Shown here one piece after another: positions 7,559 through 15,553 of a stretch of 64,000 nt of DNA (position 1 is its first letter; every line of letters starts with the position of its first letter). A program made the translations under genes and the position numbers. The notes beneath the pieces were generated by a model. That model saw only the letters and a program-made list of their open reading frames with translations. It ran no database searches and was not told where the DNA came from. Source of the DNA: Burkholderiales bacterium (lineage in GTDB: Bacteria > Pseudomonadota > Gammaproteobacteria > Burkholderiales > Burkholderiaceae_C); assembly GCA_003963075.1 (NCBI GenBank), contig RXJV01000036.1:1-64000 (forward strand). Reading direction: 5' to 3'.

Positions 7559-8611
7559 TCAGGCCCGGGTACGCCGACGCCGGCTCAGGAAGGCCAGCGC
7601 GCCCAGGCCGGCCATCAGCAGTGCGCCGGCATCCGGCTCAGGCACCGGGCTCAGCGTCACGAAGGGCTCATAGCCCAGCTCCAGCTTGCTGCCGTTGGCC
7701 GACGGGGCCAGCGAATTCGCGATCAGCGTGCCTTCCAGGTGACCGGAGCCGGTCACTGCCGCATTCGGCGCCAGCACGCTGCCGTTCAAGAAGCTGTTGA
7801 CGCTGACGCTGCTCGCCTGGCTCAGGTTGAACACCAGGCGGTCCCGGCTCAGGGCCAGCGCATCGGTGGAGTTGACCTGGTCGCCGCCGAGCTGGCCGCC
7901 GAAGCTGACCTGCGTGGCGCTGCTGTTGATGACGATATGCGCACCGCGCTTGACGTTGCTCAGCTGCAGATTGCTGAGGTTGCCGACATTGCCGAGGTTG
8001 AACACCTGCACGTCCGAGACGCCGTCGCCGACGAGGCTGATGCCGCTGTTCAATGCGGACCAGCTGCCGTTCTGGGTCTGAGCCGCGAGCTGGGTCGAGA
8101 GCGCGCCCAGCTTGGTCTTCGCGGCGGCGAAATCGATGAAGCTCGCATTACGGACGGCGCTGCCGTACTGCCAGCTCTGGGCATTCAGGCTGCCGCCGTA
8201 GACGATCTGGCCCGGCGCGGTCTGCGCGGTGATCCAGGCCCCGGTGCTCGGACCGATGGAGGCATTGGTGTTGGTGTTGTAGGTGGGGCCGTTGTAGATC
8301 GATCCGGCATTGCCGCCCCATTCGCTGGTCAGCGACACATTGCCCTTCACCACCAGCGTGGGCCCGGCGGCGTTGTAGGGGTTGCGATAGCCGACATCGA
8401 AGCCACGCGTCAGATTGCCGCCGACCGCCAGGCGGCCTTCCACGTCTGCGGCGCCGCTGACGTCGCCAAAGAAGAAACCGCTGTAGCCGTTGGCCACACC
8501 GAAATCGATGGTGGGCACCGCCATCGCCGCGCCACAGACCCAACCGGCCCCCAGCGCAAATACCATTCGAATACCACGCGAAACGCTCGACAGACCCTGA
8601 GAACCGAACAT
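7559..8611 (-). CDS. choice-of-anchor A family protein with PEP-CTERM tail
   Basis: Secreted protein of 350 residues preceded by an AGAGGAAA site. After a signal peptide ending AMA, residues from about 36 match the choice-of-anchor A repeat-free domain: DFGVANGYSGFFFGDVSG, DVEGRLAVGGNLT and later SVNSFLNGSVLAPNAAV with EGTLIANSL. That domain occurs on surface proteins that use different anchors in different bacteria; here the anchor is VPEPDAGALLMAGLGAL plus RRRRTR, an exosortase signal. A role in adhesion or biofilm matrix is family-level inference. It is followed on the same strand's upstream side by another PEP-CTERM gene at 8804. Confidence 0.85.
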   Translation of the reverse strand: MFGSQGLSSVSRGIRMVFALGAGWVCGAAMAVPTIDFGVANGYSGFFFGDVSGAADVEGRLAVGGNLTRGFDVGYRNPYNAAGPTLVVKGNVSLTSEWGGNAGSIYNGPTYNTNTNASIGPSTGAWITAQTAPGQIVYGGSLNAQSWQYGSAVRNASFIDFAAAKTKLGALSTQLAAQTQNGSWSALNSGISLVGDGVSDVQVFNLGNVGNLSNLQLSNVKRGAHIVINSSATQVSFGGQLGGDQVNSTDALALSRDRLVFNLSQASSVSVNSFLNGSVLAPNAAVTGSGHLEGTLIANSLAPSANGSKLELGYEPFVTLSPVPEPDAGALLMAGLGALAFLSRRRRTRA

Positions 8612-8803: not shown

Positions 8804-9373
8804 TCAGGCGCGGCGGCGGCGGCCGAGCGCGATCAACAGCGCAGATCCGGTCAGCGCCAGGCTGCCCGGCTCAGGCACGTTGGCCGCGATGTTGTCGAGC
8901 GCAAACCCGCCCGTGCCCGCAAAGCTGACCTCGGTGAGCTGGGCCCAGCGGCTGTCCAGCACCAGGTGGCTGGCACTCGACAGGTCGGCGGCGAGCGAGG
9001 CGACCTGCACGCCGTCGAGCAGGCCGCTGACGAGCAGGGTGCCGGGGCCAAAGCCAAAATCCTCGGGCAGCGCATCGAAGGACTGCAGGCTGAACAGGCC
9101 GCCGCCTTCGCGGCTGAGCGTGAAGGGCGTGCTATCGAAGCCGCCAAACATCGCGTCATCCAGCGGCAGAAAGCTCGCGGACGGCCCGCTGATGACGAAG
9201 CCCGCCTCGTGATAGCGGGCGATGTCGGTGGCGTTGTCGATGTCGATCAGGCCAGGGTGGTCAAAGGTGAGCAGGCCGGCATGCGCAGCGCCGCCTCCGC
9301 ACAGGGCGGCAGCGACTGCAGCGGCACCGACGAGGCGCGGCAAAAATGAAGCGGGGCGGTTGAGCGGTGACAT
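8804..9373 (-). CDS. PEP-CTERM sorting domain protein
   Basis: Secreted protein of 189 residues with the start at MSPLNRPAS, which follows GGAG; the 88-codon extension in the track is spurious. A signal peptide ends AAHA. The mature protein begins LLTFDHPG and resembles short lectin-like/PEP-CTERM exported domains, with no assignable function. The C-terminus is VPEPGSLALTGSALLIALGRRRRA, a complete exosortase tail. It lies 192 bases upstream of the choice-of-anchor gene on the same strand and may share its regulation. Confidence 0.82.
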   Translation of the reverse strand: MSPLNRPASFLPRLVGAAAVAAALCGGGAAHAGLLTFDHPGLIDIDNATDIARYHEAGFVISGPSASFLPLDDAMFGGFDSTPFTLSREGGGLFSLQSFDALPEDFGFGPGTLLVSGLLDGVQVASLAADLSSASHLVLDSRWAQLTEVSFAGTGGFALDNIAANVPEPGSLALTGSALLIALGRRRRA

Positions 9374-9672
9374 GAGATCTCCGTGAGGCGTGGCGGTGGC
9401 AAGAGTCAATGCGCCGGCGGGGCCGCAGCGGGCGCGAGCCCGGCCTTGGCCTGGCGGCATCTGGCATACGCAGCCCAGGCCGGACGGATGCAGGGCCGCG
9501 ACGCTTTCGCCCCCCCAAACTGGGGGAAGGGGCGGCGGCCAGCGCCTAGCATCGACACCCATGCACCGCCCTGTTCCGACCCTCGCCCCGTGCCTGGCCA
9601 CCGCCGCAGCCGGCCTGCGGCCGCAGGCGCATGCCACGCACCGGCCAGCCAGCCCGCACTGAGTTGCCCACG
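9374..9672. other. divergent intergenic region, nothing recognised
   Basis: About 300 bases between the PEP-CTERM gene and pbpC. The open frames here are extensions of neighbouring genes' frames with no domain. Promoters for both directions should lie here; none is clear enough to name. Confidence 0.4.
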
Positions 9673-12069
9673 ATGCCCCTGCCCCGTCTGCGCCGTGTCG
9701 AGCTCGCCGTCGCGGCCTTGGGCATCGCCGTGCTGGCGCTGGACCTCGCCTTCCCGTTGCCGCAGCCTGCCAGCGACGCCCCCACGCTGACCGTGCTCGC
9801 CGCCGACGGCACGCCGCTGCGCAGCTGGGCCAGCGAAGACGGCGCGCAGCGCCAGCCCACCACGCCCGAGGCGGTGTCGCCGCGCTATCTGCAGGCGCTG
9901 CTGCATTACGAGGACAGCTGGTTCCGCTGGCACCCCGGCGTGAACCCCGTGGCGCTGGCGCGCGCGGCCTGGCAGTGGGCGCGGCATGGGCACATCGTGT
10001 CGGGCGGGTCCACGCTGACGATGCAGGTCGCGCGCCTGGTGGACGAGAAGGCCGCCGGCCGCAGCCTGGCCGCCAAGCTGCGCCAGATCGCCCGCGCGCT
10101 GCAGCTGGAGCTGCACTGCAGCAAGCGCGAGATCCTGACGCTCTACCTCAACCTCGCGCCCATGGGAGGGCCGCTGGAGGGCGTGGAGACGGCCAGCCGC
10201 GCCTACCTCGGCAAGCCCGCGGCCGAGCTCTCGGCTGCCGAGGCCGCGCTGCTGGTGGCGCTGCCGCAGTCGCCCACCCGGCTGCGCCCGGACCGCGCGG
10301 TGCAGGCCGCGCAGGCCGCGCGCGACAAGGTGCTGACCCGCATGCAGACCCTGGGCGTGTGGCCCGCCGCCGAGGTGGCCGATGCCAAGCTGGAGCGCGT
10401 GTTCGCGCCGCCGCTGCGCGCGCGCTGGCTGGCGCCGCTGGCGGCCGAGCGGCTGCGCCAGCAGGCCCGCCGCGAGGGCCGGCGCGAGGCCGTCATCCAG
10501 ACCACGCTCGACGCCGGCCTGCAGGCCCGGCTGGAGCAGCTGCTGGCCGACCGGCTCAACACCCTGCCCGAGGCCAACTCGATGGCGGCGCTGGTGGTGG
10601 ACAACCGCACGCTGGAGGTGCGCGGCTACGTCGGCTCGGCCGACTTCAGCGATCCGCGCCGCGGCGCCCATGTGGACATGGTGCGCGCCCAGCGCTCGCC
10701 GGGGTCCACGCTCAAGCCCTTCCTGTACGGCATGGCGCTGGACGAGGGCCTGATCCACTCCGAAAGCCTGCTGATCGACGCGCCGCAGAACTTCGGCGGC
10801 TACGCGCCGGGCAACTTCCAGGCGGACTTCTCCGGGCCAGTCAGCGTGAGCGAAGCGCTGCAGCGCTCGCTCAACGTGCCTGCCGTGGACCTGCTGGACC
10901 GCCTGGGCCCCGAGCGCTTTGCCGGCCGGCTGCGCCACGCCGGCCTGCGGCTGCGCATGCCCGCCAACGCGGCGCCCAACCTCAGCCTCATCCTCGGCGG
11001 CGGCAGCACCTCGCTGGAGGAGCTGGTCGGCGCCTACACGGCGCTGGCGCGCGGCGGCCTGGCCGGGCGGCCGCGGCTCACGCCCGGCGCGGCCCCGCAC
11101 GAGGTGCGACTGATGAGCGAGGGCGCCGCCTTCATCGTGCGCGAGATCCTGGAAAACGGCGGCCGCCCGGGCAACCCGTTTCGTGAGAGCAACCAGCGCG
11201 TGGCCTGGAAGACCGGCACCAGCTTCGGCTTTCGCGACGCCTGGGCGCTGGGCGTGACCGACCGCTACACGGTCGGCGTGTGGGTGGGCCGGCCGGACGG
11301 CACGCCCAACCCCGGCCACTTCGGCGCTAACACCTCGGCCCCGCTGCTGCGCGACCTGGCCGCCGCCCTCGGCCCGGACGAGGCCCGCCAGCAGCTCGCC
11401 CCGCGCCGCCAGCCCGACAGCGTGCGCGCCTTGCCCATCTGCTGGCCGCTGGGCCGGGCCGAGGCCGCCACCCCGACGGCCCAATGCCTACAGCGCCGCA
11501 GCGCCTGGACGCTGGACGGCGCCGTGCCGCCCACGCTGCCGGACCGGCTGCAGCCCGGCAGCCTGGTCGAGACCGCCTGGACCCAGGGCGGCCACCGGGT
11601 GCGGCCCGACTGCGCGCCCGATGCCACACGGGCCGAGCTGGTGCGCTGGCCCACGCTGCTGGGCCCCTTCCTGGACGCCGCGCGGCTCGACCCGCTGGCC
11701 CGCCTGCCCTGGGCGCCGGGCTGCGCGCCCCGCAGCCCAGCGGCGCAGGCGCTGCGCATCGTCGGCCTGGAGCCCGGCACCGTGCTGCGGCCCGCGCCCG
11801 GCCGGCGCGACGTGACGCTGCGTTTGCAGGCCATTGGCGCCCAGCAGGGCGTCAATTGGCTGCTCGACGGCCAGCTCGTCGGCAGTGACCTGGGCAACTC
11901 GCAGACCCTGACCCTGCGCGCGCCCGGCAGCCATGCCCTGACGGCCATGGACGGCCGCGGCCGCTGGGCACGCGTCGGCTTCGAGCTGCAGGCCGAGGCG
12001 CCGGCGCGCGCAGGCAAAGGCGCCGACGATCCGGCCGTGACGAGCGCCAGCCCCAGCGCTCTTCGCTAA
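9673..12069 (+). CDS. pbpC: penicillin-binding protein 1C
   Basis: Bifunctional peptidoglycan synthase of 798 residues, anchored by one N-terminal transmembrane helix (VELAVAALGIAVLALDLAF). A GT51 glycosyltransferase domain follows, with EDSWFRWHPGVNP near 80 and GGSTLTMQVARL near 110. The transpeptidase domain carries SPGSTLKPF (catalytic Ser in STLK), SLN in LQRSLNVPAVD, and KTGT. The last ~200 residues match the PBP1C C-terminal beta-sandwich domain (QGVNWLLDGQ). Start set at MPLPRLRR; the track starts 14 codons earlier and neither has a good ribosome binding site. In many genomes pbpC follows an alpha-2-macroglobulin gene; that partner is missing here. Confidence 0.92.
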   Translation: MPLPRLRRVELAVAALGIAVLALDLAFPLPQPASDAPTLTVLAADGTPLRSWASEDGAQRQPTTPEAVSPRYLQALLHYEDSWFRWHPGVNPVALARAAWQWARHGHIVSGGSTLTMQVARLVDEKAAGRSLAAKLRQIARALQLELHCSKREILTLYLNLAPMGGPLEGVETASRAYLGKPAAELSAAEAALLVALPQSPTRLRPDRAVQAAQAARDKVLTRMQTLGVWPAAEVADAKLERVFAPPLRARWLAPLAAERLRQQARREGRREAVIQTTLDAGLQARLEQLLADRLNTLPEANSMAALVVDNRTLEVRGYVGSADFSDPRRGAHVDMVRAQRSPGSTLKPFLYGMALDEGLIHSESLLIDAPQNFGGYAPGNFQADFSGPVSVSEALQRSLNVPAVDLLDRLGPERFAGRLRHAGLRLRMPANAAPNLSLILGGGSTSLEELVGAYTALARGGLAGRPRLTPGAAPHEVRLMSEGAAFIVREILENGGRPGNPFRESNQRVAWKTGTSFGFRDAWALGVTDRYTVGVWVGRPDGTPNPGHFGANTSAPLLRDLAAALGPDEARQQLAPRRQPDSVRALPICWPLGRAEAATPTAQCLQRRSAWTLDGAVPPTLPDRLQPGSLVETAWTQGGHRVRPDCAPDATRAELVRWPTLLGPFLDAARLDPLARLPWAPGCAPRSPAAQALRIVGLEPGTVLRPAPGRRDVTLRLQAIGAQQGVNWLLDGQLVGSDLGNSQTLTLRAPGSHALTAMDGRGRWARVGFELQAEAPARAGKGADDPAVTSASPSALR

Positions 12070-12123: not shown

Positions 12124-13176
12124 ATGATGATTGAGCTGTTGATTTGTATCCTGGCCGCCGCGCTCGGCGTGGTGTTTGTCGGCCTGCTGTGGTGGGGGCG
12201 TCGCCGCCAGCAGCGCGTTCGCGAGGCCGCCGCGCAGCGCGAGGCCCAGCGCGCGATGCTGGAGCAGGCCGAGCATGTGGCGCGCGCCCAGCGCCTCGCC
12301 GCTGAAGCCGAACAGCAGGCCCGCGAACAGGCCGAGCGCGACGCCGCCGCGCGGGCGGCACGCCAGGCCGCTGAAGCCGAGCGGGCACGCGTTGCGGCGG
12401 AGCGCGCAGCCCGTGAGCAAGCGGAACGGGAAGCCGCCGAGCGGGCGCGCCTGGCCGCCGAGGCCCGGGCCGAAGCCGAGCGCCTGGCCCGGGAACGCGC
12501 CGAGCAAGCGGCCGAGCAGGCGGCCCGTGAGGCGGCCGAAGCCGCCGAGGCCGCAGCCCGCCAGCGGGCCGAACGCGAAGCCGCGGAACAGGCCCGTCTG
12601 GCCGCTGAGGCCGCTGAGGCCGCCGAGGCCGCCGCCCGCGCCGACGCCGAACGCGCGGCACAGCAACGCGCGGAGCAGGAACGGGCAGAACAGGAACGGG
12701 CCGAGCAGGCCGCGGCAGCGCAACGTGCCGAGGCCGAACGCCAGGCGCGTGAACAGGCCGAACAACAAGCCGCCGCCGCGGCCCGCGAGCTGCGCGCCGA
12801 TGAAACCCTGGTGCTGGTGGCCGATGATTCCAAGATCGTGCGCGTCAAGCTCAGCCGGCTGCTCGCCACGCGCAGCTACCGCATCGCGCTGGCCGAGAGC
12901 GGCGAGCAGGCGCTGGAACTGATCGCCGCCGAACGCCCCCACGTGCTGATCACCGACGTCGAGATGCCCGGCATCGATGGCTTCGAGCTGACCCGGCAGG
13001 TGCGCGCCAACCCGGCCACGGCCACGCTGCCGGTGCTGATGATCACGTCCTCCGACGACCGCCAGCAGGCCGCCGCCGACGCCGGCGTCACCCAGCTGCT
13101 CGGCAAGCCCTTCTCGGAGGACGCGCTGCTGGCCGCCATCGAGCAGGCACGCCTGACGGTGCGCGTGCCGATCTAG
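12124..13176 (+). CDS. membrane-anchored coiled-coil response regulator
   Basis: About 350 residues in three parts. One transmembrane helix (LLICILAAALGVVFVGLLWW) is followed by roughly 190 residues made almost only of Ala, Glu, Arg and Gln, read as one long TolA-like coiled coil. A C-terminal CheY-like receiver has all key residues: the acidic pair in VADDSK, phosphoacceptor Asp in ITDVEMPG, Thr/Ser in ITSS and Lys in LGKPF. There is no output domain, so the signal must pass by protein contact. A GTG 14 codons earlier is an alternative start. No histidine kinase is adjacent. It sits 54 bases after pbpC on the same strand, so a cell-envelope role is possible. Confidence 0.8.
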   Translation: MMIELLICILAAALGVVFVGLLWWGRRRQQRVREAAAQREAQRAMLEQAEHVARAQRLAAEAEQQAREQAERDAAARAARQAAEAERARVAAERAAREQAEREAAERARLAAEARAEAERLARERAEQAAEQAAREAAEAAEAAARQRAEREAAEQARLAAEAAEAAEAAARADAERAAQQRAEQERAEQERAEQAAAAQRAEAERQAREQAEQQAAAAARELRADETLVLVADDSKIVRVKLSRLLATRSYRIALAESGEQALELIAAERPHVLITDVEMPGIDGFELTRQVRANPATATLPVLMITSSDDRQQAAADAGVTQLLGKPFSEDALLAAIEQARLTVRVPI

Positions 13177-13216: not shown

Positions 13217-13867
13217 TCACTGGCCCTGCAGGGTCTGGCGGTAGCGCTGGCCCCGGAAGCGCAGCACCAGCTCGCGCGGGCGGATCTGCTCCAGCACCAG
13301 CTCGCCGCCGAGGCTCGCGCCCTCGCGCATGACCTCGCCGTTGACGATGACGAAGCGGCTGGCCGCGTCGTCCGAATAGACCGAACCGCTGATCGCCAGC
13401 CGTGGCAGCTCGCGGCGCGTGCTCTCGGGCAGTTCGGCCAGCCGCGGGATGCGGGCGTCCGGTGCCGGGGCCACGGCGGCCGCTGGCGGCACCGGCGGCA
13501 GATAGGGCGAGGCGGACGCCGCCGGCGCGGGCTGGGGCACGGCAGCCGGCGCGACGGGTGCGGTGGGCGCCGCCGCAGTGACCGACCGCGGCGGCAGCGG
13601 CGGCACCTGGGGTGGCACCGCGGCGACGGGCGCGGCCGGGGGCGTTGGCGCGGCGCTGTCCGGCGGGCCGCTGGCCCACCAGCTGCCGGCCCCGAGGCCG
13701 GCCAGCAGCAGCAGGCCAGCACCGGCCCAGGGCAGCCAGCGGCGCGGGCCGGTGCCTGCCGCGGGCGCGCTGCCGGGCAGCGGCTGGGCATGCAGACCGG
13801 GCACCTGGCCGCGCTCGCGTTCGCGGTCGGCTTCGGCACGGCGCAGGGCGTCGAGGATGTAGGACAT
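13217..13867 (-). CDS. gspB: general secretion pathway protein B (ExeB-like)
   Basis: Inner-membrane protein of 216 residues. It begins with the family signature MSYILDALRRAEADRERERG, has one transmembrane helix (LPWAGAGLLLLAGLGAGSWW), a long Pro/Ala linker that can span the periplasm, and a C-terminal domain (LAISGSVYSDDAASRFVIVN, then GEVMREG) typical of GspB. With GspA it helps build the type II secretion secretin through peptidoglycan. It follows gspA by six bases and is surely co-transcribed. The core gsp operon is not in this window. Confidence 0.88.
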   Translation of the reverse strand: MSYILDALRRAEADRERERGQVPGLHAQPLPGSAPAAGTGPRRWLPWAGAGLLLLAGLGAGSWWASGPPDSAAPTPPAAPVAAVPPQVPPLPPRSVTAAAPTAPVAPAAVPQPAPAASASPYLPPVPPAAAVAPAPDARIPRLAELPESTRRELPRLAISGSVYSDDAASRFVIVNGEVMREGASLGGELVLEQIRPRELVLRFRGQRYRQTLQGQ

Positions 13868-13873
13868 GGCGGT

Positions 13874-15553
13874 TCAGTCGGTCGATCGGGGGTCCAGCCG
13901 CGGCTCGGCAATGCCGGCTGCGCGGTTGACCTGCATCAGCGTGATGGGGCCGAGCCGGCCGTCCGGCTGCAGGCCCTGGCTGGCCTGGAAGGCCTGCAGC
14001 TGGCGCGTCAGCTCGGGCCAGCCGGGCGTGGCGCTGACCGGCACGGTGGGCGCCGCCGAGCCGGGCAGGCGGGCGAGCTGCGCGGCCAGCCAGTCGTGCA
14101 GCGGCGCGCTGTTGTCGGCGCGGCCAACATAGCCCGGTGGCACGCGCCACAGGGTCGTGAACTCACCCCGCCACACGGCCGCCAGCTCGGTCAGCCCCAC
14201 CGCGCGCGGCACGCCGTCCACCAGCAGCGTGGCCTGCTGTGGGTCCAGCCCCACGAGCGCGGCGAGTGCCGGCGGCTGACCCGGGCGGCGCAGCGTCAGC
14301 AGCACCGGCCGGTCGATCAGCCGGATCAGCGACAGGCTGCCGTTGCTGCTGCGGTGGCAGGCCAGGCCCTGGCGCGCGGCCGTCGCGCAGGGGTCGGCCT
14401 GGGGCGGCAAGGGCAGGCCCCAGCGCTGGGCCAGCCCGGCCCAGGCATCGGCGTCGCGTGGCGTCCAATCGGCCAGACGCAGCGGCGCCGCGGCGGGCCG
14501 TGTCGCCGGGCTGCTGCTCGCGGCCGACGCCTGCGGCAGCGCCTCTGACGCGGCGCGGGCCGTGGGTGCCGGTGAAGACGCGGCCGGCGCCGGCGACGCC
14601 GCCCGGCCGCTGCGCCCGGCCTGCGACTGCTGCTGCAGCGCCCAGGCCAGGCCGGCGCCGGCGACGGCTGCGGCCAGCAGCAGCAGGCCGATGCCGACCG
14701 GGTCGCGCCGGCGCTGGCGGCGGCGCAGGACGGGCTGGGGCGGGGCATCGAACACCTCGGCCGCGGCGCGCTGCACGATGGCCGGCGTGACCTGGGCCTG
14801 GCCGGTGGCATAACCACCCAGCAGAGCGCGGTCGCAGAGCAGATTGATGCGGCGCGGCACGCCGCGGGTGAGCTGGTGGATCAGGTGCAGGGCCTTGCGG
14901 TCAAACGGCGAGGCGCCGTTGAGGCCGGCCACCTTGAGCCGGTGGCCGATGTACTGCGCCGTCTCGGCCTCGGACAGCGCACCGAGATGAAAGCGCGCAA
15001 TCACACGCTGCGCCAGCTGCTCCAGCTCCGGCCGGGCCAGCATGCCGCGCAGCTCGGGCTGGCCGATCAGCACCACCTGCAGCAGCTTGCGCGTCGCGGT
15101 TTCGAGGTTGGTCAGCAGGCGCAGCTGCTCCAGCACGTCGGCCGACAGGTTCTGGGCCTCGTCGATGATCAGCACGTTGTTGCGGCCCGCCGCGTGCTGG
15201 GCCAGCAGGAAGGCGTTCAGCGGGTCGACAAAGTCCTTGACCGTGCGCGCCCCCGCCGGCACCGGCACGTGGAACTCGTCGCAGACGGCCTGCAGCAGCT
15301 CCGGCACGGTGAGCTTGGGGTTGAAGATGTAGGCGACGTTGCAGTTCGTCGGGATCTGCTCCAGGAAGCAGCGGCAGACGGTGGTCTTGCCAGCGCCGAT
15401 CTCGCCGGTGAGCAGCACGAAACCGCCGCCGCCGTCCAGGCCGTACAGCAGATGGGCCAGCGCCTCGCGGTGGCGCTCGCTCATGAAGAGGTAGTGCGGG
15501 TCCGGCGCGATCGAGAACGGCGCTTGTTTCAAGCCGAAGAAGGGCGCGTACAT
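13874..15553 (-). CDS. gspA: general secretion pathway ATPase GspA (ExeA-like)
   Basis: Protein of 559 residues. An AAA ATPase domain starts with MYAPFFGLKQAPFSIAPDP and carries Walker A GEIGAGKTT, Walker B NVLIIDEAQNL and GVPRRINLLCDRAL. A transmembrane helix follows (GIGLLLLAAAVAGAGLAWAL), then a Pro/Ala-rich linker, a C39-peptidase-like region (WRGEFTTLWRVPPGYVG) and a C-terminal peptidoglycan-binding motif (LQAFQASQGLQPDGRLG-type). The order matches ExeA, which binds and opens peptidoglycan for secretin assembly in type II secretion. First gene of the gspA-gspB unit. Confidence 0.9.
   Translation of the reverse strand: MYAPFFGLKQAPFSIAPDPHYLFMSERHREALAHLLYGLDGGGGFVLLTGEIGAGKTTVCRCFLEQIPTNCNVAYIFNPKLTVPELLQAVCDEFHVPVPAGARTVKDFVDPLNAFLLAQHAAGRNNVLIIDEAQNLSADVLEQLRLLTNLETATRKLLQVVLIGQPELRGMLARPELEQLAQRVIARFHLGALSEAETAQYIGHRLKVAGLNGASPFDRKALHLIHQLTRGVPRRINLLCDRALLGGYATGQAQVTPAIVQRAAAEVFDAPPQPVLRRRQRRRDPVGIGLLLLAAAVAGAGLAWALQQQSQAGRSGRAASPAPAASSPAPTARAASEALPQASAASSSPATRPAAAPLRLADWTPRDADAWAGLAQRWGLPLPPQADPCATAARQGLACHRSSNGSLSLIRLIDRPVLLTLRRPGQPPALAALVGLDPQQATLLVDGVPRAVGLTELAAVWRGEFTTLWRVPPGYVGRADNSAPLHDWLAAQLARLPGSAAPTVPVSATPGWPELTRQLQAFQASQGLQPDGRLGPITLMQVNRAAGIAEPRLDPRSTD

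Follow-up and report, generated by a model that had tools for sequence, protein, structure and literature searches.

A probable membrane-anchored single-domain response regulator with a long charged helix, from a small protein family in a branch of Burkholderiales

The 64,000-nucleotide stretch of DNA analyzed here (the window), from a genome of Roseateles/Pelomonas type (Sphaerotilaceae in NCBI taxonomy), encodes a protein with one N-terminal transmembrane (TM) helix, a ∼190-residue stretch of Ala, Glu, Arg and Gln, and a C-terminal receiver. We call it a variant of single-domain response regulators; the family to which it belongs is small, undescribed and shared with related bacteria. The reading we favor, with somewhat better than even confidence, is that of an orphan regulator held on an inner-membrane tether and acting, like CheY or Spo0F, either through contact with another protein or as a sink for phosphate. 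The features to which we refer are the following.

9631–12069, + strand: pbpC (PBP1C), 54 bp upstream of the receiver gene (Pfam, NCBIfam, congener loci)
12124–13176, + strand: whole gene, TM helix, charged helix and receiver; an intact open reading frame of 350 aa (ORF, orthologue starts)
12136–12192, + strand: TM helix, residues 5–23, N-out/C-in as judged by charge (mean hydropathy 2.81)
12199–12216, + strand: conserved basic cluster RRRQQR, residues 26–31, predicted to lie just inside the membrane (orthologue comparison)
12211–12774, + strand: long A/E/R/Q helix, residues about 30–217, of putative single-alpha-helix type (composition, periodicity, AlphaFold2)
12775–12807, + strand: short flexible hinge with conserved ELRADE, residues 218–228 (alignment, model confidence)
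12811–13143, + strand: receiver domain (PF00072), residues 230–340 (Pfam, alignment, Foldseek)
12823–12849, + strand: alpha-1 motif DDSKIVRVK (DNA pattern search of the genome)
12955–12957, + strand: phospho-acceptor Asp278, invariant (alignment)
13096–13098, + strand: Leu325 at the position of CheY Tyr106, hence no aromatic switch (alignment)
Contig C121, about 122.8–123.5 kb, outside the window: second tethered receiver (L182/L210), with TM helix, Pro-rich linker and receiver, 250 aa

Orthologous N-termini read MNELL, which makes the second ATG, at 12127, the better and likely the true start of the protein (349 aa). The receiver is complete, as the original prediction had it, with a full-length Pfam Response_reg match of 88 bits and with Asp234, Asp235, Asp278, Thr308 and Lys328 invariant (21–23 relatives aligned). 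Foldseek comparison with solved receivers gave target-normalized TM-scores mostly between 0.83 and 0.92 for single-domain targets, and this PDB fold search returned ordinary receivers only. The receiver is also the last domain, followed only by a ten-residue tail, and Pfam places no further domain in the protein, in agreement with the proposed absence of an output domain.

With the receiver as query, we found an orthologue in 17 of the 19 congeners searched, at 82–91% receiver identity, and all 17 carry the TM helix, the basic cluster, the charged helix and the receiver; this conservation of order and sequence lifts the architecture above chance. Across the GTDB family, the family receiver sits in a short open reading frame in about 23 of 301 genomes and 9 of 141 genera, and nearly all of the remaining matches listed fall within open frames of ∼2000 aa, the size expected of a ChpA-like kinase. 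The readable short proteins outside the genus keep the same order, some mixing helix with Pro-rich stretches (a comparison made without genome G338, and in which the G031 copy is cut by a contig end). That no named family covers this arrangement was borne out by the libraries, where Pfam and NCBIfam matches are to generic receivers only, those in NCBIfam far below equivalog cut-offs. A search of the literature (open-license PMC papers) and of the family libraries returned no named family or paper with this architecture; an archaeal census does mention a membrane-anchored response-regulator domain, MetOD3.

The TM helix is a single segment, as predicted, with no Lys or Arg ahead of it and five within the 15 residues behind. 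The same bias appears in 36 of 36 family proteins measured (at most one Lys or Arg before, four to seven in the 15 residues after). Judged by the positive-inside rule and by the presence of a receiver, so uniform a bias should place both the helix and the receiver on the cytosolic side, and the internal location first proposed for them is thus probable.

The composition of the long helix is as originally described, with 93% A/E/R/Q over about 194 residues, and the suggested span of ∼28 nm holds as arithmetic (194 × 0.15 nm = 29 nm if fully helical). The heptad-like pattern and the coiled coil read from it, on the other hand, were not recovered: hydrophobicity at period 3.5 did not rise above shuffled sequences in the window protein (z = −0.1 for the longest uniform stretch and −0.6 in windows, against 8.3 in the windowed test for a positive control, the MCP signaling domain from a related locus). 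Only five Leu, Ile, Val, Met or Phe occur among 169 helix residues. Opposite-charge pairs are enriched at i,i+4 (z = 5.9; mostly 2.5–8 in relatives), a trait of single alpha-helices, though not at i,i+3. AlphaFold2 models residues 3–217 as one continuous helix, followed by a hinge and a confident receiver, with the lowest confidence (about 60) at residues 211–220; the alignment behind this model is thin (23 rows) and the prediction is of a monomer, so that dimers are still compatible with it. Single alpha-helices are rich in Glu, Arg and Lys and are stabilized by salt bridges (PMC5347031), and they serve as linkers in prokaryotes too (PMC5378345). Although it contains more Ala and Gln than textbook examples (PMC5347031), the stretch is read, from its sequence and model, as a boom resembling a single alpha-helix rather than a TolA-like coiled coil, its monomeric state being a prediction. 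In one family member, L149 (G275), 13-residue repeats that are nearly perfect (AEREAAEAAARAQ) make up the helix, which offers a natural test of how a helix can be designed without heptads.

A very long helical region and a receiver also occur together in FrzS and AglZ of Myxococcus xanthus (PMC1974792), which raises the alternative of a true coiled coil serving as a polar or filament-forming scaffold. We regard this as very improbable. FrzS indeed combines a receiver with a 258-residue coiled coil, but its receiver is N-terminal and not phosphorylatable, and no TM helix is described for it (PMC1974792), whereas the receiver of the window protein is C-terminal and has the complete set of phosphorylation residues. 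A heptad signal is lacking in the window protein, although one orthologue, L044, does have it (z = 4.9), and the internal repeat periods of the helix (e.g., 5, 13, 26, 37, and 48–50 residues) are not multiples of 7.

Variation in linker length bears on what the helix can do. A coil of variable length among orthologues had been named as grounds against the original interpretation, and the linker does vary: it measures 174–296 residues within the genus, where receiver identity stays at 82–91%, and about 147–513 residues across genera. A fixed-length ruler is therefore ruled out, and a role as spacer, as first suggested, or as tether is still plausible. On the favored reading, the charged helix would set only reach and local concentration, so that its length could drift even as the anchor and the receiver stay conserved. 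Asp278 would be phosphorylated by a histidine kinase whose gene lies elsewhere, and the phosphorylation state would alter the receiver's binding partner near the membrane, as in CheY; alternatively, the receiver may drain phosphate from its kinase.

The switch position speaks to the choice between these two outputs. It is Leu or Val in 29 of 29 members of the window family and Ile in 5 of 5 members of a second tethered family described below, against Tyr or Phe in 19 of 19 ChpA receivers; PilG, PilH, CheY and nearly all other receivers sampled are likewise aromatic. An aromatic residue here (CheY Tyr106) is typical of receivers, though neither universal nor strictly required. Its loss suggests that output does not run through the usual Tyr–Thr coupling. 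Together with the intact phosphorylation residues and the missing output domain, this is consistent with a membrane-localized phosphate sink or relay (Spo0F-like or sink-CheY-like) that serves a CheA-type or other kinase and has no target of its own. We treat this branch of the favored explanation as a minority view, since a non-aromatic switch is by itself no proof that output is missing and a sink has no obvious need for a 29-nm boom.

Gene neighborhood supplied no partner. An inspection for nearby kinases had been suggested, and across 41 loci (kinase motif search plus neighbor clustering) none recurred as a conserved neighbor, which makes the window protein an orphan regulator. Orphans make up about 40% of two-component genes (PMC3018481), so that status alone is ordinary. 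An operon with pbpC was considered and rejected: pbpC adjoins the receiver gene in only 8 of 17 congeners and is not its neighbor in other genera, so it is probably not a functional partner. In other congeners, branched-chain ABC transporter genes and an AraC regulator lie beside the receiver gene, and in other genera the surrounding genes are unrelated. Several features of individual loci may be recorded. In one congener the receiver gene is followed directly by an MCP chemoreceptor gene (6745–8304 in L057). In the window, a gene pair resembling GspB and ExeA/GspA (AAA plus peptidoglycan-binding; 13217–15553, − strand) is convergent with the receiver gene and was not seen at this position in congeners. 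Two PEP-CTERM proteins are encoded at 7559–8611 and 8804–9637 (− strand); the second falls just below the Pfam cut-off, and one of the two has an ice-binding-like adhesive domain.

The closest relatives within the host genome, which has 91 receivers that we found, were ranked with a profile of the family. After the window protein itself came the receiver of a 2025-aa ChpA protein with Hpt, HATPase, CheW and receiver domains (124 bits), a 250-aa protein 110 kb away (89 bits), and two small receivers beside chpA (83 and 73 bits); chpA, pilG and pilH are so named from domain order and gene cluster. With the ChpA receiver first and the small receivers of its cluster third and fourth, the window protein might take its phosphate from ChpA and serve as an additional receiver in Pil-Chp, the chemosensory system of type IV pili. 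We think this unlikely. The ChpA/PilL in-cis receiver, though nearest by profile score, lies within the 2025-aa kinase, has an aromatic switch and carries other alpha-1 residues, as do PilG and PilH; no synteny with pil-chp genes appeared in the loci compared; and ChpA-like receivers are present in most genomes of the GTDB family, the window family in about 8%. A tree, built on few columns and with a bootstrap that does not settle, groups each receiver family but gives neither their order nor a relation to ChpA. ChpA is a possible phosphate donor, even though its contact helix differs and the window family is far rarer than ChpA.

The second-ranked 250-aa protein leads to another tethered family. 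The DNA pattern for DDxx(V/I)VRxK occurs in exactly two genes of the host genome, both encoding membrane-tethered receivers (the reversed pattern, as a chance control, matches once per strand). The second family shares with the first the TM anchor, a C-terminal orphan receiver, the VVRxK alpha-1 and a non-aromatic switch, and differs in having a short Pro-rich linker and a wider distribution. It occurs in 45 of the 301 genomes of the GTDB family and, within the genus, in 19 of the 20 genomes searched, with a TM helix and short linker in the readable members. The two families do not co-occur obligately: of the 23 genomes with the window family, only 9 have both. No neighborhood is shared across genera in the loci compared. 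In one genome (L211, G031:C22, 9448–10107) the second tethered receiver lies between flhDC/motAB/cheYZ-like and flagellin-like genes, as judged by eye; the other genomes looked at have no such flagellar neighbors, and a flagellar link was rejected. That a second family uses a quite different, Pro-rich linker suggests that tethering itself, rather than helix chemistry, matters. We tentatively propose, at well under even confidence, that the two families form an undescribed signaling class in this part of Burkholderiales; they would use the VVRxK face of alpha-1 to share a common kinase and would serve as phospho-sinks or recruiters at the membrane, with tether chemistry tuning reach.

The usual picture of a response regulator is of a freely diffusing protein. 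A conserved family with a complete receiver anchored to the membrane on a long helix of varying length would make the effects of tethering on two-component signaling testable, and the second family offers an internal comparison of a long charged helix with a short Pro-rich linker. The window family is, in addition, a natural bacterial candidate for a single alpha-helix.

Among known systems, CheY, Spo0F and DivK likewise lack an output domain and have a receiver whose phosphorylation residues are all present; the window protein differs from them in its membrane anchor, long helical tether and Leu/Val switch. TolA, to which the helix had been compared, also has one N-terminal TM helix followed by a long helix of Ala, Glu and charged residues. 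The likeness holds for composition and stops there: the TolA helix is periplasmic, the reverse of the topology inferred for the window protein with its cytosolic C-terminal receiver, and Pfam finds no TolA domain in the latter. In topology the closer parallels are ZipA and EzrA, which have a very short outside N-terminus, a single TM helix, and a cytosolic linker and C-terminal part; their domains are unrelated to those of the window protein, and the parallel is one of analogy only.
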